DNA of 64,000 bases from Paraflavitalea sp. CAU 1676. Its GTDB lineage: Bacteria; Bacteroidota; Bacteroidia; Chitinophagales; Chitinophagaceae. Every line of letters begins with the position of its first letter. Positions within the stretch are counted from its first letter, which is position 1. Below, piece by piece: positions 8,467-31,781 of this stretch. A model generated the notes under the pieces. It did no database searches and was not told the DNA's origin. It saw only the letters and a list, made by a program, of their open reading frames with translations. The position numbers and the translations under genes are program-made. Where the stretch lies: positions 682,001 through 746,000 of the forward strand of contig NZ_JARHUJ010000005.1 in the NCBI RefSeq assembly GCF_029223285.1, in the 5' to 3' direction.

Positions 8467-11019
8467 ATGAGAAAGTTGATTTTCCTTGTTTTACCCCTCT
8501 TTTTACTGGTGCAAAAAGCCGCTGCACAGCAAGTGTTGTCGGGTGTTGTGAAAGACAGTACCGGTTTGCCGGTCGCTGGCGCTACGCTTTGGATCAAAGG
8601 CTCCAATGCCAATGCTATTGCTGATGATAAAGGACTATTCAGTATTGCTGTAAAGAAATCGCTGCCTTTCGTTCTCCGCATCACCTCGGTGGGCTTTAAG
8701 CCTCATGATATAGAAGTGACCTCGTTGTCGGCTGAGGCGCTGAATATAGTACTGGCACGTGATAGTCACCTGACCGAAGTCGTCATTACTTCGCGCCGGC
8801 GTCTGGAAACAGCGCAGGATGTGCCCATTCCGATCTCTGTGGTCGGTGGCGCCCAGGTGGAAGCTACCGGTGCTTTTAATGTAAACCGCTTGAAGGAACT
8901 GATACCCACCGTTCAATTGTATTCTTCAAATCCCCGTAATACGACCCTGAATGTGCGGGGTTTGGGCTCAACTTTTGGATTGACCAACGATGGTATCGAT
9001 CCCGGCGTAGGGTTTTATGTTGATGGGGTATATTTTGCCCGTCCCGCCGCCACTACGCTCGATTTTATCGATGTGGAGCAAATTGAAGTGCTGCGCGGCC
9101 CTCAGGGTACGCTCTTTGGAAAGAATACCACGGCTGGTGCTTTCAACATCACTACCCGTAAACCTTCTTTTACCCCAGGTGCTACTTTTGAAGCGAGCTA
9201 TGGCAACTTCGGATATATTCAAGCCAAGGCTTCCGTAACTGGCGGCCTGATCGCTAAAAAGCTGGCTGGTCGTCTTTCTTTTTCCGGTACTCAACGTGAT
9301 GGCTTGATCTATAATGTAGCGACTCAAAAACATACGAACGACCTGAACAACCTCGGTGTTCGTGGTCAGCTGTTGTTTACGCCGAGCGATAAGGTAACTA
9401 TTACTGCTACCGGCGATCTTTCGCGCCAGCGCCCTGATGGCTACGCACAGGTGGTGGCTGGTGTGGTGACTACGCAGCGTGCTGCTTATCGCCAATTTGA
9501 CAACATTATTAAAGACCTCAATTACCAGTTGCCCAGCCGCAATCCTTTCGAACGGTTGATCGATCACAATACTACCTGGCGTTCAGGTAATGACCTGGGC
9601 GGCGCTTCGGTGAACATCGATGTCAAGCTGGGTAAAGGAACGCTTACCTCTACGACCGCCTGGCGTTACTGGAACTGGGATCCCTCGAACGACCGGGACT
9701 TTACTGGTCTCGCTGTATTACAACTATCGCAGGCCACTTCCAAGCACCAGCAATGGACACAGGAAGTGCGTTATGCCGGTAACTTTTCCAATCGCCTAAG
9801 TGGTGTGATCGGTGTATTTGCGATCAAGCAGGATCTGAAGACCGATCCTGTACACATCGAAGAATCGGGCAATGCACAGTGGCGTTTTTCTCAAAGCACC
9901 ACCAGTGATAAATGGAAAACGCCGGGCTTGTTCGACGGCTACGGTATCAAAACCAAATCGAGGTTACAGACTACCGGTGCAGCAATCTTTGCGCAGGTAG
10001 ACTGGGCTATTACCGACGAGATCCATGTGCTGCCCGGTTTGCGTTTCAACTATGATAAAAAGAAGGTGAACTATGATCGCCAGACCTATGGCGGTTTGGA
10101 AACCTCCGATCCTTCGCTCATTGCCCTGAAGAACCTGGTGTATACGGCACAGGCCTTCGATGTGGAAGCTGACGAGAATAACCTTTCGGGCCAGATCACG
10201 CTCGCTTACAAAGCCAGCAGCCGGTTGAATGCTTTTGCTACTTTTTCTACCAGTTATAAACCCGTTGGTGTAAACCTTGGTGGTTTGCCCACCAGCAATG
10301 GAAAAACGATGATCGAGCTGGCGCAGATCAAACCCGAATACGTAACTCACTACGAGTTTGGTTTGAAGTCGAAGCCTTTTGCCAATGCTACCGCTAACCT
10401 TACCTTCCATCATACAGACGTAGAAGACTTTCAAACGCAGGTACAGACTGCCGAGGTAGGTGTAAACCGTGGTTACCTGGCCAATGCAGAAAAAGTGCGT
10501 GTGTGGGGTATCGAGTTCGATGCGAGTGTGAACGTAGGTAAAAACCTATCCCTCTATGGCGCCCTGGCTTATACAGAAGGTGAGTATGTGTCGTTCAAGA
10601 ATGCTCCTGTGCCGCTCGAAGAAACGGGAGCGCCCAGCGCGTTCAAAGATATTTCCGGTGGTGACCTGCCCGGTATTTCAAAATGGGCCGGTTCGCTGGG
10701 TGGTGAGATCACTACCAATGGTGGCAGACTGCTGGGTCTGGGCGGTAAGTTCTTTTTCGGTGCTGATAGTTACTTCCGGTCTGACTTCTCTTCCAGTCCG
10801 TCGCCTTCCAAATTCCTGAATGTTCCGGGCTATGCGTTGTTCAATGGCCGTTTGGGTTTCCGTGCGATCAATGGTTTGACCTTATTCGTATGGGGCCGCA
10901 ACCTGACCAACAGGGACTATTTTGAACAGCTGCTGCCAGCTGCGGGCAATGCGGGTCATTATGCTGCCGTATTGGGGGATCAGCGTACATATGGCGTTAC
11001 AGTTCGTTACTCATTGTAA
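8467..11019 (+). CDS. TonB-dependent receptor
   Basis: An 850-aa outer-membrane transporter. ATG 8467 begins a clean signal peptide (MRKLIFLVLPLFLL...AAAQQ); the frame also opens from a TTG two codons earlier. Next come a carboxypeptidase-regulatory-like domain (about 22-100), a plug with VEQIEVLRGPQGTLFGKNTTAGAFNI (described by its LRGPQGTLFGKN core), and a 22-strand-type barrel ending in VRYSL, an aromatic-terminated Omp85 signal. The LRGPQGTLFG plug is typical of the large COG1629 receptors for siderophores, vitamin B12-like compounds and sugars. It is followed after 21 bp by a DUF2490 protein, probably in the same transcript. Ligand unknown. Confidence 0.95.
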   Translation: MRKLIFLVLPLFLLVQKAAAQQVLSGVVKDSTGLPVAGATLWIKGSNANAIADDKGLFSIAVKKSLPFVLRITSVGFKPHDIEVTSLSAEALNIVLARDSHLTEVVITSRRRLETAQDVPIPISVVGGAQVEATGAFNVNRLKELIPTVQLYSSNPRNTTLNVRGLGSTFGLTNDGIDPGVGFYVDGVYFARPAATTLDFIDVEQIEVLRGPQGTLFGKNTTAGAFNITTRKPSFTPGATFEASYGNFGYIQAKASVTGGLIAKKLAGRLSFSGTQRDGLIYNVATQKHTNDLNNLGVRGQLLFTPSDKVTITATGDLSRQRPDGYAQVVAGVVTTQRAAYRQFDNIIKDLNYQLPSRNPFERLIDHNTTWRSGNDLGGASVNIDVKLGKGTLTSTTAWRYWNWDPSNDRDFTGLAVLQLSQATSKHQQWTQEVRYAGNFSNRLSGVIGVFAIKQDLKTDPVHIEESGNAQWRFSQSTTSDKWKTPGLFDGYGIKTKSRLQTTGAAIFAQVDWAITDEIHVLPGLRFNYDKKKVNYDRQTYGGLETSDPSLIALKNLVYTAQAFDVEADENNLSGQITLAYKASSRLNAFATFSTSYKPVGVNLGGLPTSNGKTMIELAQIKPEYVTHYEFGLKSKPFANATANLTFHHTDVEDFQTQVQTAEVGVNRGYLANAEKVRVWGIEFDASVNVGKNLSLYGALAYTEGEYVSFKNAPVPLEETGAPSAFKDISGGDLPGISKWAGSLGGEITTNGGRLLGLGGKFFFGADSYFRSDFSSSPSPSKFLNVPGYALFNGRLGFRAINGLTLFVWGRNLTNRDYFEQLLPAAGNAGHYAAVLGDQRTYGVTVRYSL

Positions 11020-19950: not shown

Positions 19951-22900
19951 TTAAGGTCCTGGTTTGGTGATGGGCAATATTATGGAAAATTCTGCGCCTT
20001 CGTTCTTCGTGCCTTTTGCGGTGATGGTACCACCGTGGCGTTCCACTATTTTCTTGCAGAGTGCAAGGCCAAGCCCGGTACCTTCGTACCGTGCGGTTTG
20101 GTGGAGACGCGCGAACGTTTCAAATATACGATTGGCATACTGCTCGTCAAAACCGATCCCGTTGTCGCGTATACCTATTTGAGCATGGGGTATACCCACG
20201 TCGTTTGTAAATGTGGTAGAGCTTATGTGGATAGCTGGCGCTTCGGTTTCTTTGGCAAACTTCAAGGCGTTTTGCAGAATGTTGTAGAACAGCTGGTGCA
20301 TGAGTATAGGTATGCCATCAATGGCGGGCAGTACATCGACCTGAATGGTGGCGCCCTTTTGTTGGATCATGAGCTCGAGGTCTGTTTCGATGTGGTGGAT
20401 GGTTTGGTTGAGGTCGATTGATTGCCAGGGCTGTTCAGCAGCGCTCACTGCCGAATAGCTGAGTATGCCTTCTATCACGGCCATCATGCGGTCGGTGGCC
20501 ACCAGTATCTTGTTGAGCCATGTTTGTCCATTATCCGGTAAGAAGTTGTTGTATTCGTCCTGCATTCGTCTTCCATAAGTCTTGATCTTGCGTACCGGTT
20601 CTTTCAGGTCGTGGCTGGCCACATGTGCAAACTGAAGCAGGTCGTCGTTGGACCGTTGCAATTCTTTGGTGCGTTGTTGTACCGCCTGTTCGAGTTTTTC
20701 CGTGTTCTCTTCCATTTTTCGCCTGGCTTCTACCTTGGCGGTGACTTCATAGGCGTGCAGCATGATGTCGGTGATGGCGCCATGGCTGCCGGTGATGGGA
20801 TGTATGACGATGTCGAAGTATCCCTGGCGGGATTGTCCGTTTTTGTGGATGGTGGCGGGGAATTCGGCCGTGAGTACGGGTTCGCCGGTTACATAGGCCT
20901 GGGTAAGGTAGTTGCTGAACAAGTTGGCGCTGTCCGGTTCGCATACCTCGGCGATGCGTTTACCGATCAGCTGTTCTTCAGTGTGACCAAACAACTGCTG
21001 GAAATGCGGATTGGCAAGGGTATAAGCAAATGAAGGCGGTTGGAGGATGGCAATGGCGGCAGGCGCCTGCATAAAGAAATTGCGAAGCAGGGATTCTGTT
21101 TGACGCCGGTTTTCGGCCATGTTGATGTGTGCTTTTACTTTGGCTACTACCTCTTTGGCCGAAAAGGGTTTTACCAGGTAATCGTCGGCGCCAGTTTGTA
21201 TGCCTTCTATCCTGGCCTCTTCTCCGGCGCGGGCCGACAGCAATATGACGGGTATATGCCGGGTGGCATGATGGTCGCGCAACTTTTCGAGCAGGGCAAG
21301 CCCATCGAGCCTGGGCATCATGATATCTGATAACAGCAATTGTGGCTGATGAGTGATCATTTTCTGGTAGGCGTCTTCGCCATCGATAGCCGTTATGACG
21401 TTGAATTGATCGGCGAGCAGGCGTTGTACATACTCGCGCATGTCTGCATTGTCGTCTGCAAGCAGTACGGTTGGTTTTCCGTTAGAGAGGGCTGCAGGGA
21501 GCTCTCCTGGTGCTTGCAGATGGGGGGCGCTGAACCCTGTGTCGATCCATTTATTGGCTTCTTCCACGAAGGCAGCCGTATTGCGCAGCACCAGTTCGGC
21601 AGGCGGTGCAACGATCTTTGCGGCATCGAGGTGGTCTTTCCCCATGGGGATGGTTATTGAAAAAGTGGAACCCTTTCCCTTTTCGCTGTTCACCGTTATG
21701 TTGCCATGATGAATGCGTATAAGTTCTTTCACCATCGAGAGGCCAATACCGGTGCCTTCCTGGCTGCGGCCCGCTGATTCTTCTACCCGGTAAAAGCGAT
21801 CGAATATCTTATCTAATTCGTGTGCGCCAATGCCGATCCCTTCATCGGTTATGGAAATATGTACTTCATTGTCGTGTTGCTTTATTTCTACCAGTATTTT
21901 CCCTTTATCGCTGTATTTAAAGGCATTTGATATGAGGTTAAGGATGATCCTTTCCCACATTTCGATATCGACGAACACCTCGCCAGCAATTGGTTGGATC
22001 CGTACTTCGAGTTGGAGCCCCGCTTTTTCGATGGCTGCGCGAAACACGCCGGCCAGTTCGGCTGTGAAGCGGCTGATATCTACCTGGGTGAATTTGCCTT
22101 CCAGGCGACCGGCTTCGATGCGCGAGAACTCGAGCAGGGTGTTGACGAGTTTCTGCATGCGCAAGGCGTTGCGATGGGCCAGTTCAACCCGTCGTCTTTG
22201 TTCGTCGGACAAGCCAGAGTCAAGCAATGCTTCCTCTATCGGCCCCAGTAAAAGGGTAAGTGGTGTGCGAAACTCATGACTGATGTTGGAGAAAAAGATC
22301 GTTTTGGCCCGATCGATCTCGGCCAGTGCGGCTGCCCTTTTGCGCTCTTCTTCCAGGGCATGCAGGTTGGCAAAGCTGGTTGCTACCTGGTCGGCGATAA
22401 GGTTTAAGAAGGATCGATATTTTGCATCGAGCAGCCGATGGGGATTTTGTCCGAGGACGATGATGCCGTAAGGCTCAGCCGCACCTGCCTGGATGATGGG
22501 TAGCAGGATGGCTTTAGAAGAGGCTGTTTTCCAGGCGCCGGCGGGCAATGGGCCGAAGACTGCGTGGGGCTGTTCGAGTACCTGCAGTTTGCGGGTGGCA
22601 ATTGCCTCCCTTATTAAAGTGGGGAGATTATTACCCGAAGCTAATTCAATCGTGTGCGGAACGGTATCTTTTGCGGAGCCGAGGGGCGTGCTATGGGTAA
22701 GTAAGGCTTTATCGCGTGTTATGGAATAGAACAACATGCTGGTAATGTCCTGCGGATTTCGGGCGAGGGTGGAAATGGTTTGCCTGATCACTTCATCGTT
22801 GCTGGCGCAGTCGGTGAGGTTAGCGCCCAGTTCGGCCAATGTCTTTAACTGGCGGTCGCCGATGATGCGCTCCGTGTCGTCGGTATTTGCGCAAAAGATG

Positions 22901-23352
22901 CCTGCCGTGCGGCCATCATCGCCGGGAATAGGGGTGTAGGAGTAAGTGTAATAGGTTTCTTCGGGATAGCCGTTGCGCTCCATGATCAGCAGCTGAGACT
23001 CCATGTAAGAGCCCTCGTTCTGCTCCATGGCTTTGCGGGCCAGGGGGCCGGCAAGGTCCCAAATGTCTTTCCAGACCTGGGCAGCGGGAGCTCCCAGCGC
23101 CCAGGGATGTTTTCCCCGGACTATATCCAGGTAGGCGTCGTTGTAAAGTTTGGTAAGCTCGGTCCCCCAGCCGATCCACATGGGTTGGCGGGAGGTTAGC
23201 ATAATGCGGACGCAGGTTCTAAGACTCTGTGGCCAGGTTTCTACGGGGCCTAGTGGGGTGTCGTTCCAGTTGTATGCACGGATACGTTCTCCCATTTCGC
23301 CGCCGCCGGCCAGGAATTCGGGCAATGTGTTGGACATAAGGGTCTGGTGCAT
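19951..23352 (-). CDS. Hybrid sensor histidine kinase with two kinase cores (PAS-GAF-HK-REC-PAS-HK)
   Basis: 1133 aa, no membrane segment, so a cytoplasmic sensor. In order: PAS-like N-terminus (about 25-165, YNWNDTPLGPVETWP), GAF domain (about 170-335), kinase 1 with HisKA His359 in SNISHEFRTP and HATPase boxes (NLISNAFKYS at 472-481, GTGIGLSM at 533-540), receiver domain (628-745, phosphoacceptor Asp676 in SDIMMPRLDG), second PAS (about 755-870), a coiled coil, and kinase 2 with His914 in ASHDLKEP plus a second HATPase. Two complete kinase cores on one chain with a receiver between them is unusual. The response regulator at 19508-19936 follows it. The signal is unknown. An in-frame ATG at 23337 is an alternative start. 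Confidence 0.93.
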   Translation of the reverse strand: MHQTLMSNTLPEFLAGGGEMGERIRAYNWNDTPLGPVETWPQSLRTCVRIMLTSRQPMWIGWGTELTKLYNDAYLDIVRGKHPWALGAPAAQVWKDIWDLAGPLARKAMEQNEGSYMESQLLIMERNGYPEETYYTYSYTPIPGDDGRTAGIFCANTDDTERIIGDRQLKTLAELGANLTDCASNDEVIRQTISTLARNPQDITSMLFYSITRDKALLTHSTPLGSAKDTVPHTIELASGNNLPTLIREAIATRKLQVLEQPHAVFGPLPAGAWKTASSKAILLPIIQAGAAEPYGIIVLGQNPHRLLDAKYRSFLNLIADQVATSFANLHALEEERKRAAALAEIDRAKTIFFSNISHEFRTPLTLLLGPIEEALLDSGLSDEQRRRVELAHRNALRMQKLVNTLLEFSRIEAGRLEGKFTQVDISRFTAELAGVFRAAIEKAGLQLEVRIQPIAGEVFVDIEMWERIILNLISNAFKYSDKGKILVEIKQHDNEVHISITDEGIGIGAHELDKIFDRFYRVEESAGRSQEGTGIGLSMVKELIRIHHGNITVNSEKGKGSTFSITIPMGKDHLDAAKIVAPPAELVLRNTAAFVEEANKWIDTGFSAPHLQAPGELPAALSNGKPTVLLADDNADMREYVQRLLADQFNVITAIDGEDAYQKMITHQPQLLLSDIMMPRLDGLALLEKLRDHHATRHIPVILLSARAGEEARIEGIQTGADDYLVKPFSAKEVVAKVKAHINMAENRRQTESLLRNFFMQAPAAIAILQPPSFAYTLANPHFQQLFGHTEEQLIGKRIAEVCEPDSANLFSNYLTQAYVTGEPVLTAEFPATIHKNGQSRQGYFDIVIHPITGSHGAITDIMLHAYEVTAKVEARRKMEENTEKLEQAVQQRTKELQRSNDDLLQFAHVASHDLKEPVRKIKTYGRRMQDEYNNFLPDNGQTWLNKILVATDRMMAVIEGILSYSAVSAAEQPWQSIDLNQTIHHIETDLELMIQQKGATIQVDVLPAIDGIPILMHQLFYNILQNALKFAKETEAPAIHISSTTFTNDVGIPHAQIGIRDNGIGFDEQYANRIFETFARLHQTARYEGTGLGLALCKKIVERHGGTITAKGTKNEGAEFSIILPITKPGP

Positions 23353-26921: not shown

Positions 26922-27368
26922 TTAATTGGTCTCGAACAGGAAACGGTCCAACGATCTTTTGATCAGTAGGCCGCCTGCATCGAGCTCGAGTATCCTGCGG
27001 AGCAGGGTAACGAGTTGGGTATAGCTGGATGGCTTAGCGGCGTACAGATTGGCACCGGCCAGGTAGGCGCTTTGTACAAAGTTGGGGTTTATGGTGGTGG
27101 AGAACATGACGATGGGCACGTTTTGCAGTGTTTTGTCGGTCTTGATCTCATTGAGGGTTTCGAGCCCGTTCTTCAGCGGCATATTGATGTCGAGGAAAAG
27201 GAGATCGGGCAATACGATGGCCTTGTGCAGATAGTCTATGAGGTCTTTGCCATTGGGGAAGGTGAGGGGGTGCTGTTCGATGGACAGGTCTTCGAGGGCC
27301 TGTTGGAACAACAGACGATCATCCGGATCATCATCCGCCAGCATGATAAAGTACTTTGAGTAGGGCAT
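26922..27368 (-). CDS. Single-domain response regulator (CheY/Rcp1-like)
   Basis: 148 aa from ATG 27368, where the receiver core MLADDDPDDRLLF begins; 30 further in-frame residues upstream have no domain character. Phosphoacceptor in FLDINMPLKNG, conserved Thr in MFSTTINP, Lys in AAKPSSY. No output domain. It sits after a DoxX gene on the minus strand and close to the divergent kaiC-kaiB-kaiB-kinase operon, so it may be the partner of that kinase, which has no regulator next to it. This pairing is inference. Confidence 0.9.
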   Translation of the reverse strand: MPYSKYFIMLADDDPDDRLLFQQALEDLSIEQHPLTFPNGKDLIDYLHKAIVLPDLLFLDINMPLKNGLETLNEIKTDKTLQNVPIVMFSTTINPNFVQSAYLAGANLYAAKPSSYTQLVTLLRRILELDAGGLLIKRSLDRFLFETN

Positions 27369-27467
27369 TTTTATTGGTAGGGGGTCGGTGCAAAGATACG
27401 GTGCGGGCCTGAATCGGGCAAAGCGATCCGTCGTGTTGCGCTCAAGTAAGATGTGCAAGAATTGCTC

Positions 27468-27917
27468 TTATTGGCGAGTCCGTTTAGCTATGGCGTTATC
27501 TATACTCCAGGGATAGTTTGTAATTGTTGAGAGGAAGAAGCCAGCCGCGCTTACCGCAAACACGGAATAGTCGAGCGGGGCGCGGATGCCAAAGGCCAGC
27601 GTCATGCAGATAGCGAAGGTCAATGCGAGCACTCCGCTGCTTAATGCTGCCCATTTGGTCCATAGACCGATAATTAATAACACACCAAGCAACAGTTCCA
27701 ATATGGTTGCCAGGATGGCGAATACTTCAGCCATACCATCGGGCAGGAAATACATTAGTTGGTGGGCATAGGCAGAGAAGTGCTGCCAGTCGCCCCAGGC
27801 TACTCCCGGTGTTCCATATGGTCCCCAGCCGCCTAGCCTGTCCAGGCTGGGGGAGATGAAACCTACGCCCAATGCAAGTCGAAGAAAGGCTTGTGGAAGT
27901 ACCTGGTTGAATCTCAT
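27468..27917 (-). CDS. DoxX family membrane protein
   Basis: 149 aa with four predicted membrane helices: LPQAFLRLALGVGFI, MAEVFAILATILELLLGVLLIIG, AALSSGVLALTFAICMTLAFG and VFAVSAAGFFLSTI. The pattern is that of DoxX/TQO-like proteins, linked to quinone or thiosulfate redox and oxidative stress, though most members are uncharacterised. It starts 202 bp from the divergent kaiC and is followed after 99 bp by a response regulator. Confidence 0.85.
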   Translation of the reverse strand: MRFNQVLPQAFLRLALGVGFISPSLDRLGGWGPYGTPGVAWGDWQHFSAYAHQLMYFLPDGMAEVFAILATILELLLGVLLIIGLWTKWAALSSGVLALTFAICMTLAFGIRAPLDYSVFAVSAAGFFLSTITNYPWSIDNAIAKRTRQ

Positions 27918-28118: not shown

Positions 28119-29843
28119 ATGTCCCGTTCTGCGAGAAAAAGCAATTTACAACCCCTCGAGAAAAAGCCTACCGGCATTTCGGGCTTTGATGAAATTACCG
28201 GTGGTGGTTTGCCGGCCGGCCGGCCTTCCCTGATCTGCGGCGAAGCCGGTGCGGGGAAAACGTTGTTCTCCATCGAGTTTATTGTTCGTGGCGCCATTGA
28301 GTTCAAAGAACCCGGTGTGATCGTAATATTTGAGGAGCAGGCTGCCGACCTGGAGAAAAATGTGGCTTCCCTTGGTTTTGATCTCAAGAAATTACAAAAA
28401 GACAACATGTTGTGGATCGATCATGTGCATATCGACCGCAGTGAAATTGAAGAGACCGGCGAATATGATCTGGATGGCCTGTTTATCAGGATCGGTCATG
28501 CCATCGACAGCATCGGCGCCAAAAGGGTCATGCTCGACACCATCGAGAATCTCTTTGGTGGCCTTTCAAACGAAGGAATCCTAAGGGCCGAGTTGCGGCG
28601 ACTGTTCGGTTGGCTTAAGAACAAGGGCGTAACGACCATCATTACCGGCGAAAGAGGCCAGGGCACTTTCACGCGGCAGGGCCTGGAAGAATATGTGTCC
28701 GACTGCGTGATCCTGCTCGAGCACCGGGTTACCAATCAGATCTCCACGCGGTTACTACGGGTGGTCAAATACCGCGGGTCGCTGCACGGCACCAACGAAT
28801 ATCCCTTCCTGATCGATGAAGAAGGCATCTCGGTGCTGCCCGTTACTTCACTGGGCCTGGACAATGCCGTATCGTCGCAACGTATCTCTACCGGTATCCT
28901 TTCTTTAGATAGTATGTTTTCCGGAAACGGCCTGTTCCGCGGAAGTTCGTGCCTGGTGAGCGGTACCGCCGGTACCGGCAAAACGAGCATTGCCGCCTAT
29001 TTCGCCGAGGCTTCCTGCAACCGCCGGGAGCGTTGTTTGTATTTCGCGTTTGAAGAATCACCAAAGCAGATCGTTCGCAATATGGGGTCGATCGGTATCG
29101 ATCTCAAGCGTCATATGGATGCCGGCCTGCTGGAGATACATTCTCTTCGACCTACGCTTCACGGCCTGGAAATGCACCTGGTGGCAATACACCGGGCAGT
29201 GAAGAAATTTAAACCGCGTATGGTCATCGTCGATCCTATCACCAACCTGGTAACGATCGGGTCGATGTCGGAAGTAAAGTCCATGCTGATCCGCCTCATC
29301 GATTTTTTACAGGGGGAAGGCATTACGGTGCTTTTTACCGCGCTTGTCTATGACAAAGATGCCACTGTGCAAACCGATGAAGGTATTTCCTCGCTGGTCG
29401 ACACCTGGCTACTGGTTCGGGATATTGAAGCGAATGGTGAAAGGAACCGGGGTATTTACATTATGAAGTCGCGGGGTACCAAGCACAGCAACCAGGTGCG
29501 CGAGTTCGTGATCAACGACACTGGCCTGGAGTTGGTCGATGTGTACCTGGGGCCGGACGGTATTTTGATAGGGTCGGCCCGCGAAGCGCAACAGTTGAGT
29601 GAAGTGACCGGTTTGGAACTCCGTCATTATGCCAAGAGCCGTAAAGACCGTGAAGTGGAACGCAAGCGAATGGTGCTCGAGTCAAAGATCGCTACTCTCA
29701 AAGAGGAATTTGAATCGGTGCGGGACGAACTCAATAAGACGTTTGTGGAGGAAGATCTGAAAAACGAGATCATGGAGAAGAACCGTGATGAACTCACTAA
29801 AACCAGGAATACCAGAAACAGCAGCCATGGCAAAAGGAAATAA
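28119..29843 (+). CDS. kaiC: KaiC-family double RecA-like ATPase
   Basis: 574 aa from ATG 28119; the frame is open 132 bases further up but the KaiC core starts after this Met. Two RecA-like domains: CI with Walker A GEAGAGKT (41-48) and catalytic FEEQ (71-74), CII with GTAGTGKT (about 282-289) and FEES (about 310). In CII, the segment [11 protein letters not shown] aligns with the cyanobacterial phosphosite loop and keeps both acceptor positions as Ser424-Ser425. The C-terminus ends in a charged coiled coil (about 510-574) instead of the KaiA-binding tail. KaiC homologues outside cyanobacteria are linked to stress or timing. First gene of a four-gene operon; kaiA is absent. Confidence 0.93.
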
Positions 29844-30174
29844 ATCAACCCCAGTGAAACCGGTATTTCCGGTGACGAAGGCTGTCAAAATGAATCCCGA
29901 TCGATGGCAGCTGCGGCTTTATGTGGCGGGCAATACGCCGAAATCGGTAACGGCGCTGGCTAATCTTAAGCGTTATTGTGAAACCCATCTCGAAGGCCGA
30001 TATGAGCTGGAAGTCATTGACCTGCTAAAACATCCGCAGTTGGCGGCGGGCGACCAGATACTGGCCATCCCTACATTGGTGCGTAAGGTACCGGTACCGG
30101 TGCGTAAGATCATCGGCGATCTCTCGAACGAAGAAAAAGTGTTGGTGGGCCTGGACCTTAAACCTGTAAAATAA
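29827..30174 (+). CDS. kaiB: KaiB-family protein 1
   Basis: 115 aa from ATG 29827, overlapping the end of kaiC by 17 bp; an ATG at 29788 would overlap by 56 bp. The conserved KaiB core runs from about residue 27 ([21 protein letters not shown]) through [11 protein letters not shown] to [11 protein letters not shown] and RKIIGDLS. KaiB is a thioredoxin-fold-switching protein that docks on the KaiC CI ring. The N-terminal 25 residues are basic and likely disordered. The overlap suggests translational coupling to kaiC. Confidence 0.93.
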
Positions 30175-30178
30175 CATC

Positions 30179-30490
30179 ATGGAAAAAAGAGTGCAGAAGG
30201 GTAAGGAAGAGTCGGTGTTACCGGCTTACAAATTCCGGTTGTTTGTTACGGGAAGCACGCCTAACTCTGTTCGTGCCATCAACAACTTGCAGCGTATCTG
30301 TGAAGCCCATCTGGCAGGTCGCTACTCGCTGGAGATCGTTGATGTGTACCAGCAGCCTGCCGTAGCTCAATCGGAACAGATCATTGCACTGCCCCTCCTG
30401 ATCAGGAAAATGCCTTTGCCGGAAAGGAAACTGATCGGCGACCTGTCGGAGACTGAAAGGGTGCTGAACGCGCTCGGCTTAAATGAATGA
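30179..30490 (+). CDS. kaiB: KaiB-family protein 2
   Basis: 103 aa, start ATG 30179, four bases after the first kaiB. Same core: YKFRLFVTGSTPNSVRAINNLQ, GRYSLEIVDVYQ, QIIALPLLIRKMPLPERKLIGDLS. It differs from copy 1 in the VTGSTPNS loop and the QQP stretch, so the two are diverged paralogues and not a fresh duplication. Tandem kaiB genes may compete for KaiC or serve KaiC and the kinase separately. Its end overlaps the kinase start by 8 bp. Confidence 0.93.
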   Translation: MEKRVQKGKEESVLPAYKFRLFVTGSTPNSVRAINNLQRICEAHLAGRYSLEIVDVYQQPAVAQSEQIIALPLLIRKMPLPERKLIGDLSETERVLNALGLNE

Positions 30491-31781
30491 CATGAACAAC
30501 TCAATAAAATCGACTGAAGAGCTGCTGCAGGAGCTGGAGGAAACCCGTCGCCAACTTCTGGAAGCGGAGGAGATCATCGAGGCCATCCGTACCGGTCAGG
30601 TGGATGCCCTGGTAGTTCAGAACGGCGGCAAGCACCAATTGTATACGCTTCATACTGCCGACCATGCCTACCGAGTTTTCATCGAGAAGATGAACGAAGG
30701 GGCGGTTACTTTAAACAGGCAGGGGAATATTCTTTATGCCAACTCGCAATTTGCAGCCATGGTGTGCAAGCCTTTGTCGCTGATAATTGGTTTGCCTTTT
30801 AGGGAGTTTATCGCGCCCGCATCGCGGCCCTACTACCTGGGCTTGTTTGAGGTCTCCTGGTCCAATGACTGCAAGGGTGAAGTAGCGCTCTTGTGCCTGG
30901 ACTATACGATACCCATCCAGTTGTCATTGAATATGCTGGAACTCGCGGATGGTGTAGCGATGAGCATTATTCTCACTGACCTTAGTTTTCAAAAAGCGGC
31001 CCAGCAACAACTCGAAGACAACAACCGGCAACTGGAGCACTTGAATAAAACCCTGGAAGCCAGTAATCATGATCTGCAGCAGTTTGCTTCCGTTGCTTCG
31101 CACGATCTGCAGGAGCCACTACGAAAGATCCAGCTATTCAGCGACCTGATCAAGACCAGCGGTAAATCGAACCTGAGCGCCCGTGAGCTAAACTACCTCG
31201 ATAAGATCATTGCTTCTGCCGACCGGATGAAAACCCTGATCGTGGATGTGCTGAACTATTCGCGCCTGGCGGGCAGCGAAGGCGGTTTTTCGATGGTTGA
31301 TCTCAATAGGCTGGTGAAAGACCTGCTCGAAGACTTTGAATTGGTGATCCAGGAAAAGCAGGCACGCATCGAGCTTTCGGCATTGGCGATACTGGAGATC
31401 AATCGAGGGCAGATCCGGCAGATGATCCAGAACCTGGTGTCGAATGCGCTGAAGTTTTCCAGGCCGGGTGTGCCGCCGGTAGTAACCATCACCGGCCGAA
31501 GGCTGGCTTTGAAAAAGTTTGACAGTGCTCCGCAGGCAGATGGTCCTTTTTACATGATCTGTGTGACCGACAACGGGATCGGGTTCGAAGAAAAATACAT
31601 TCCTACTATATTCGCTCTTTTCGAACGGCTCAATGCCAAGGAGAAATACGATGGTACGGGCATTGGCCTGGCGATCACCAAGAAGATCGTAGAGAAGCAT
31701 GATGGACTCATCCATGTTAAAAGTAAGGTGGGTCAGGGTAGTGAATTCCAGATCATTCTCCCTGTAAAACATCTTCGCTGA
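30483..31781 (+). CDS. PAS-domain sensor histidine kinase of the kai operon
   Basis: 432 aa, start ATG 30483 within the end of the second kaiB. A coiled coil (about 5-45, STEELLQELEETRRQLLEAEE) leads to a PAS domain (about 60-170), a second short coiled coil, HisKA with His207 in SVASHDLQEPLRK, and a HATPase with QNLVSNALKFS, DNGIGF and GTGIGLAI. No membrane helix. Unlike cyanobacterial SasA it has no KaiB-like thioredoxin domain, so any link to KaiC must use another surface. It probably passes phosphate to a stand-alone receiver such as 26922-27368. Confidence 0.93.
   Translation: MNDMNNSIKSTEELLQELEETRRQLLEAEEIIEAIRTGQVDALVVQNGGKHQLYTLHTADHAYRVFIEKMNEGAVTLNRQGNILYANSQFAAMVCKPLSLIIGLPFREFIAPASRPYYLGLFEVSWSNDCKGEVALLCLDYTIPIQLSLNMLELADGVAMSIILTDLSFQKAAQQQLEDNNRQLEHLNKTLEASNHDLQQFASVASHDLQEPLRKIQLFSDLIKTSGKSNLSARELNYLDKIIASADRMKTLIVDVLNYSRLAGSEGGFSMVDLNRLVKDLLEDFELVIQEKQARIELSALAILEINRGQIRQMIQNLVSNALKFSRPGVPPVVTITGRRLALKKFDSAPQADGPFYMICVTDNGIGFEEKYIPTIFALFERLNAKEKYDGTGIGLAITKKIVEKHDGLIHVKSKVGQGSEFQIILPVKHLR

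Follow-up and report, generated by a model that had tools for sequence, protein, structure and literature searches.

A KaiA-less kaiC-kaiB-kaiB-kinase operon of Paraflavitalea with two KaiBs predicted in opposite folds

Introduction

A three-gene operon composed of kaiC, kaiB and the gene of a PAS domain-containing histidine kinase (PAS/HK) has been published for Rhodopseudomonas palustris and Rhodobacter (Cereibacter) sphaeroides (PMC4794148), and PAS kinases lie by kaiBC in Rhodospirillum rubrum (PMC10931921). The R. sphaeroides KaiC, KaiC-RS, forms a dodecamer held by its C-terminal coiled coil and works as an hourglass driven by ATP/ADP (PMC10076222). Here we analyzed the window, a stretch of 64,000 nucleotides from Paraflavitalea sp. 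CAU 1676 (contig NZ_JARHUJ010000005.1), which carries a kaiC-kaiB-kaiB-histidine kinase operon at positions 28119-31781. As read from its genes, this system corresponds to the published kaiC-kaiB-PAS/HK operon in a four-gene version. The new point is its pair of KaiBs, predicted in opposite folds, one ground-state and the other fold-switched; the three-gene operon was already known. The interpretation that we favour, with a probability of roughly 0.55, is a KaiA-less KaiBC timer driven by ATP/ADP, in which the two states of a metamorphic protein would be split between two genes and the output would be a two-component one.

KaiBs stabilized in the fold-switched state have been published (PMC10808063, PMC11185700). 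In KaiB-RS, the KaiB of R. sphaeroides, the substitutions I68R, V83D and N84R (N84A in the methods of that paper) shift the protein from 11% to 86% fold-switched, and structure predictions made from the ten nearest sequences matched nuclear magnetic resonance (NMR) data for both KaiB-TV-4 and KaiB-RS (PMC10808063). The KaiC2 class is defined with two serines (PMC5520375, PMC10076222). For Bacteroidota, one group with only KaiB2/KaiC2-like proteins has been reported (PMC5520375), and the KaiB and KaiC of a Dyadobacter are mentioned as rarely found in the phylum (PMC11573002).

Results

The two KaiBs are predicted in opposite folds

Both KaiBs recognized in the window by an earlier note, made from the sequence alone, match PF07689 (cut-off 27), with 93.5 bits for KaiB-a (115 residues; 29827-30174, + strand; its start is uncertain, an in-frame GTG lying at 29785) and 84.3 bits for KaiB-b (103 residues; 30179-30490, +). 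With 111.7 bits, KaiB-a exceeds the cut-off of the NCBIfam family NF006798 (110), KaiB-b lies below it (83.9 bits), and neither passes that of TIGR02654.

Related loci were collected by a contig-level genome scan, of which we kept the best 80 of at least 569 relatives; most of these 80 are from Bacteroidota, a few are archaeal and one is from a betaproteobacterial bin. Each paralogue was then modelled in one AlphaFold2 (AF2) run, with its ten nearest same-paralogue sequences from these 80 loci as input (11 sequences each), a set-up that follows the published ten-nearest-sequence approach. The best of five KaiB-b models has a fold-switched topology, b-a-b-a-b-b-a, with a mean predicted local distance difference test score (pLDDT) of 84. 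When this model was compared to the PDB with Foldseek, the top 11 matches were all fold-switched KaiBs (8fwj, 4kun, 5jyt and others), at query-normalized template-modelling scores (TMq) of 0.74-0.84, followed by thioredoxins that include the SasA domain (1t4y, TMq 0.76), which KaiB-b is thus predicted to resemble as a separate protein. The best of five KaiB-a models has the ground fold (pLDDT 82) and superimposes on ground-state crystal structures with TMq values up to 0.93 and a root mean square deviation of 0.7 Å, versus TMq values of 0.39-0.47 for fold-switched structures. Since KaiB-RS is predicted in the ground state and is nonetheless 11% fold-switched (PMC10808063), such a prediction leaves switching of KaiB-a possible. 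The predicted fold of KaiB-b is that of Legionella KaiB (4kun) and KaiB-TV-4 (8ubh), both stabilized in the fold-switched state (TMq 0.77-0.84). Unlike these two proteins, each described singly in the published accounts drawn on here, KaiB-b is predicted to share its operon with a ground-state KaiB encoded just before it.

The two copies also separate by phylogeny. A tree built from 93 KaiBs groups the first copies with the single R. sphaeroides KaiB (49 rows, 100/97 support), and 29 of 36 second copies form a separate group. The seven others (from three Methanoperedens loci, L111, L115, G267 and Pararhizobium) branch between the two groups, close to the base of the tree; the deep branching is unsure because the alignment has few columns. 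We considered that the second KaiB could be a duplicate restricted to Bacteroidota and ruled this out, archaeal and Pararhizobium operons having a second KaiB too, with the tree base poorly resolved.

We next examined the published switch sites. KaiB-RS residues I68, V83 and N84 correspond to columns 72, 87 and 88 of Synechococcus elongatus KaiB (Se), using the +1 offset of the construct, which we checked on the pB gene. The comparison covers 89 locus pairs, some of them possibly close relatives: 77 from the 80 best loci, the window, one plasmid and ten further genomes. A charged residue (D, E, K or R) occupies Se72 or Se87 in 80 of 89 KaiB-b and in none of the 89 KaiB-a; site by site, 58 second copies are charged at column 72 and 65 at column 87. 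In the window, columns 72, 87 and 88 read E, N and A in the second copy and V, V and G in the first. Prolines Se62 and Se69 are kept in all 89 KaiB-b, and Se71 in 80. Outside these pairs, the locus L099 of an uncultured archaeon has three tandem KaiBs (8680-9888) between kaiC and a 1160-residue open frame with the kinase module described below; its first copy has a Lys at column 87.

The linked kinases share an N-terminal module

The last gene of the operon (30483-31781, +) encodes a sensor histidine kinase of 432 residues. Pfam detects HisKA and HATPase_c in this protein, weak PAS matches, and no KaiB domain. SasA is characterized by an N-terminal KaiB-like thioredoxin domain fused to HisKA/HATPase, and the window kinase is devoid of it, as the earlier note had stated. 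The same note proposed that the kinase is wired in a different way, which can now be made specific. The constant part of these kinases is their N-terminus, a motif of about 45 residues around AIRxGxVDALVV followed by PAS; in the window this kai-linked module, hkN, spans 30507-30827 (+) and comprises the motif region and the start of PAS.

The catalytic half of the module proteins varies or is missing. We scanned 80 kinase-position proteins, namely that of the window, 75 of the 79 module proteins of the best loci and four of five alphaproteobacterial plasmid kinases (L045, L080 and L081 were omitted for their contig edges, L082 and plasmid L119 as split genes). HisKA was detected in 72, HATPase_c in 73, HWE_HK in five, HisKA_2 in five (some match both) and a receiver domain in three; KaiB is absent from the 23 Pfam families matched. 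In L111 (4773-5498) and L115 (9685-10392), the kinase place, after two KaiBs, is held by a 235-241-residue motif+PAS protein without a kinase domain, and the KaiB-b of both loci has ground-type residues. A profile built from 14 Bacteroidota-only modules matches the HWE kinase of R. sphaeroides (71.5 bits, E 1.9e-21) and four further plasmid kinases (68-121 bits). The module is also found on the HisKA_2 kinases of the Methanoperedens loci and on a Pararhizobium hybrid kinase.

Strong matches to the module lie beside kai genes. Among 296 genomes sampled from the phylum, the 19 best matches (88-153 bits) are all within 300 bases of a KaiB, and the next best, at 39.9 bits, covers the PAS part only; among 195 genomes of the family, 17 of 17 matches at E ≤ 1e-12 adjoin a KaiB. 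In many genomes, 16 (phylum) or 25 (family) first-look candidates only were scored, and the genomes G000 and G033 belong to both samples. Beyond these Bacteroidota samples the search covered a plasmid collection, in which the R. sphaeroides module matched 13 records, every one a kaiC/kaiB record and nine from one species. That the module is common to all kinases was rejected at high scores, given that the lowest kai-linked match reaches 88 bits and the best other 39.9. Weak longer matches are found elsewhere, such as one in G292 (33.9 bits over model positions 3-95), so that a remote wider module family may exist at about 34 bits. A Rosetta-stone search for fused KaiB-kinase genes in the loci read retrieved no such open frame, KaiB frames being at most 188 residues long in both genome samples.

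Directly after the kinase, a single-domain response regulator is present in 20 of the 79 loci with room for it (84 were examined, including five plasmid loci). These include Niastella locus L037 (10642-11064), L038 (10686-11111) and, with a weaker match of 46 bits, L097; in L060, L075 and L077 a response regulator lies just upstream of kaiC. The window has no response regulator directly beside its kinase. On the opposite strand upstream of the operon, it encodes a single-domain response regulator (26922-27458, -) and a DoxX-like protein (27468-27917, -). The former was evaluated as a displaced partner and rejected, because its sequence identity to the regulator of the Niastella operon is only 32%; as the best match to that regulator in the whole genome scores 73 bits, no protein is called its orthologue.

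These observations bear on a different role for the kinase, as an input that would reset KaiC/KaiB when its PAS module detects a signal, the operon then having no dedicated output. The kinase-less proteins of L111 and L115, the lack of a regulator beside the window kinase and a redox input role suggested in print for R. sphaeroides are all consistent with such a role, which is at odds with the regulators that follow the kinase in 20 of 79 loci and with the HisKA match in 72 of 80 proteins scanned. We regard an input role as unlikely, in an estimate that is not exclusive of the other interpretations.

KaiC is of the KaiC2/KaiC-RS type

The first gene, kaiC (28119-29843, +), encodes a 574-residue protein with CI and CII ATPase domains that matches NF006799 (NCBIfam) at 730 bits. 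Among solved structures, the R. sphaeroides chains 8dba (630 bits) and 8fwi (627 bits) come nearest, aligned over residues 13-563 including the tail. The tail-less R. sphaeroides chain 8db3 scores 620 bits, and the remaining full-length KaiC chains 316-360 bits. By this comparison the window KaiC is closest to the hourglass protein KaiC-RS, a homology that supports the hourglass-like, KaiA-less interpretation of the earlier note. Both Walker lysines (K47 and K288) and the Glu pairs E72/E73 and E312/E313 are present, as had been claimed. The Ser-Ser noted at the phosphosites is also there, Ser424-Ser425 aligning with the Ser pair of KaiC-RS (S413-S414 in PMC10076222), and it is the norm for KaiC2 and no departure. 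The C-terminal tail, approximately residues 493-574 (82 residues past position 492), aligns to the KaiC-RS coiled coil until residue 563. The protein thus has the sequence attributes of KaiC2/KaiC-RS: two RecA-like domains with their Walker Lys and Glu pairs, the Ser-Ser pair and a C-terminal extension predicted to be capable of forming a coiled coil.

These features recur in the 80 best loci. All keep both Walker Lys, the four Glu and the second Ser of the phosphosite pair; the first Ser is kept in 78 and replaced by Ala in two. Five positions before it, at the place of T419, 68 loci have Thr, nine Ala and three Ser, and the tail past position 492 is 63-91 residues long. Elsewhere, seven loci (L149-L155, from G267:C18, G035, G055, G116, G180, G224 and G263) encode a long-tailed KaiC of the window type, with no KaiB detected within the 10-14 kb fetched around it. 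In L157 (G130), the KaiC lacks the long tail (488-residue frame) and is accompanied by one KaiB and a linked module kinase; G234 appears similar, with one KaiB, a linked module kinase and a KaiC match that ends at 471.

The operon is widespread but patchy

The window operon is as compact as first reported, with a 17-bp overlap between kaiC and kaiB-a, a 4-bp gap between kaiB-a and kaiB-b and an 8-bp overlap between kaiB-b and the kinase gene; its coordinates proved exact. Lack of synteny in relatives had been named as an outcome that would refute the claim. Instead, 77 of the 80 best loci carry exactly two KaiBs downstream of kaiC, the others being L092 and L108, with a single copy, and L099, with three, and the kinase N-module comes next after the KaiBs in 79, the exception, L079, stopping at a contig edge. 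The assembly (8.84 Mb, 99.97% complete) contains a single full-length KaiC and two KaiBs, its two further PF06745 matches being only partial (32 and 29 bits). Consistent with the reported absence of kaiA, a search of this genome for KaiA (PF07688) gave no match at E ≤ 1, so that the KaiA of a KaiABC circadian oscillator was not found in it; in a control search, the same family matched in five of 14 genomes, including S. elongatus, and scored above cut-off in one.

The system is widespread but patchy. KaiB was found in 27 of the 296 phylum genomes and KaiC, at E ≤ 1e-40, in 29; in the sample of 195 family genomes, KaiB matches of any strength occur in 24 and matches above cut-off in 19. G304:C7, G425:C12 and G364:C150 have weak KaiB-domain matches (53-64 bits) with no adjoining module match at E ≤ 1e-12. 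Contig L038 (JADCRZ010000009.1), titled as a Williamsia sp. MAG, bears a Niastella-like kai operon whose KaiC is 79% identical to that of the window, and is probably a mislabelled or mixed bin.

Such a distribution would suit an energy or stress sensor without useful time-keeping, in which KaiC would report ATP/ADP and the kinase would integrate a PAS ligand related to redox or oxygen. The KaiC-RS hourglass is indeed driven by the ATP/ADP ratio (PMC10076222), and a redox role of the linked kinase has been suggested in print for R. sphaeroides. On the other hand, Ser-Ser and the tail are conserved, as is, in 68 of 80 loci, a Thr at the position of T419, which argues that slow phospho-cycling has been kept. 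A sensor of this kind is a real possibility, on the weaker side of even odds, and it overlaps the timer interpretation, the two not being exclusive.

In the rest of the window, the gene at 19951-23352 (-) encodes a hybrid kinase of 1133 residues, in which HisKA and HATPase_c stretches each occur twice, together with one receiver and one PAS domain.

Discussion

The window system shares with KaiBC-RS, encoded as kaiC-kaiB-HWE kinase on plasmid pB of R. sphaeroides, a KaiC with Ser-Ser and a coiled-coil tail (630 bits), a KaiB of the KaiB-a group and a downstream kinase with the same N-terminal module; KaiA is missing here and, according to PMC10076222, in R. sphaeroides. It differs by its two KaiBs instead of one and its HisKA instead of HWE core, and the biochemistry of the R. 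sphaeroides proteins is known whereas the window system is known from sequence. The proto-circadian kaiC-kaiB-PAS/HK operon of R. palustris, considered here from its description, has the three-gene plan in common with the window but one KaiB in that account (PMC4794148). Among these purple-bacterial operons, then, the kinase N-module of R. sphaeroides is found again in the window, and the single KaiB is not. With cyanobacterial KaiABC and SasA, the window shares the KaiC and KaiB families and a clock-tied sensor kinase; unlike them, it has no KaiA, Ser-Ser in place of Ser-Thr, a C-terminal tail on KaiC and a kinase without the thioredoxin domain. The earlier note is partly supported, in its hourglass-like, KaiA-less reading and in a kinase wired differently; it had overlooked the published three-gene relatives, the Ser-Ser norm of KaiC2 and the predicted opposite folds. 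We found no description of a tandem KaiB pair with opposite predicted folds in the open-licence literature, a search that excluded the supplementary tree of PMC10808063 (487 variants), which may include these proteins; the same literature gave no description of a kai-linked kinase module with exchangeable catalytic halves.

In the KaiA-less timer that we propose, and by analogy with KaiC-RS, KaiC hexamers would probably associate tail-to-tail through the coiled coil, and autophosphorylation at Ser424/Ser425 would be set by the ATP/ADP ratio. KaiB-a would be the metamorphic copy, its inactive ground fold converting slowly to the KaiC-binding fold and thereby creating a delay. KaiB-b, predicted to be held mostly fold-switched, would be able to bind the KaiC CI ring without delay, and may compete or cooperate with KaiB-a. 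The kinase would sense the state of KaiC/KaiB-b through its N-terminal motif and PAS, and signal to a response regulator. With less support, KaiB-b might replace, as a free-standing and always-ready CI binder, the thioredoxin domain that SasA carries in its own chain, and the kinase might be the output. The most detailed version of this proposal is tentative and seems to us rather doubtful: KaiB-a would be the slow ground-state timer and KaiB-b a permanently fold-switched, detached SasA-like domain that couples KaiC to the kinase through a kai-specific motif+PAS with a freely exchanged catalytic half.

Several observations weigh against the timer with divided KaiB states. The window KaiB-b has E, N and A at the switch sites, versus R, D and R/A in the published mutant. 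Nine of the 89 KaiB-b are uncharged at both sites (L098, L101, L107, L111, L115, L022, L044, L104 and L113), a set that includes three archaeal, two Bacteroidales-type and the G267 copies, so that any lock is not common to every second KaiB. The counts are not independent, the charged state requiring seven changes on the 93-row tree. Each predicted fold comes from a single AF2 run with 11 sequences of the same paralogue, and the other four models per run had lower scores (63-73). In the fold-switching segments, Chou-Fasman propensities gave no support for the split, with the opposite sign in places; we treated them as uninformative because the shifts in control segments were of comparable size. 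KaiB-b is not directly linked to the kinase by any of the evidence, and among the loci read none has an open frame with both KaiB and the module. Finally, in the family sample, KaiB is missing from two further members of the genus, which implies that the system is dispensable.

Some of these points would be expected if both KaiBs were ordinary metamorphic proteins, present for dosage or to assemble a mixed ring on KaiC, and if the fold difference were an artefact of shallow alignments. The AF2 result depends on the alignment supplied, Chou-Fasman does not support a split, the prolines at Se62, Se69 and, mostly, Se71 are kept in KaiB-b, and early-branching KaiB-b have ground-type residues. This explanation must contend with a paralogue-specific change at published switch sites (80 of 89 versus 0 of 89), with the clean and opposite Foldseek matches of KaiB-a and KaiB-b, and with the agreement of ten-nearest-sequence predictions with NMR for KaiB-TV-4 and KaiB-RS (PMC10808063), and we consider it improbable. 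Under the most detailed version of the divided-state timer, the fold lock would be derived in this lineage, because it is the early-branching KaiB-b that keep ground-type residues.

The opposite-fold pair would offer a natural system in which to study the contribution of fold switching to a timer, and it is relevant to the question of whether KaiBs that adopt the fold-switched form only are derived or, as has been postulated (PMC11185700), ancestral. The module common to the kai loci of Bacteroidota, archaea and R. sphaeroides is a concrete candidate for which the R. sphaeroides proteins, already studied, offer a ready test.

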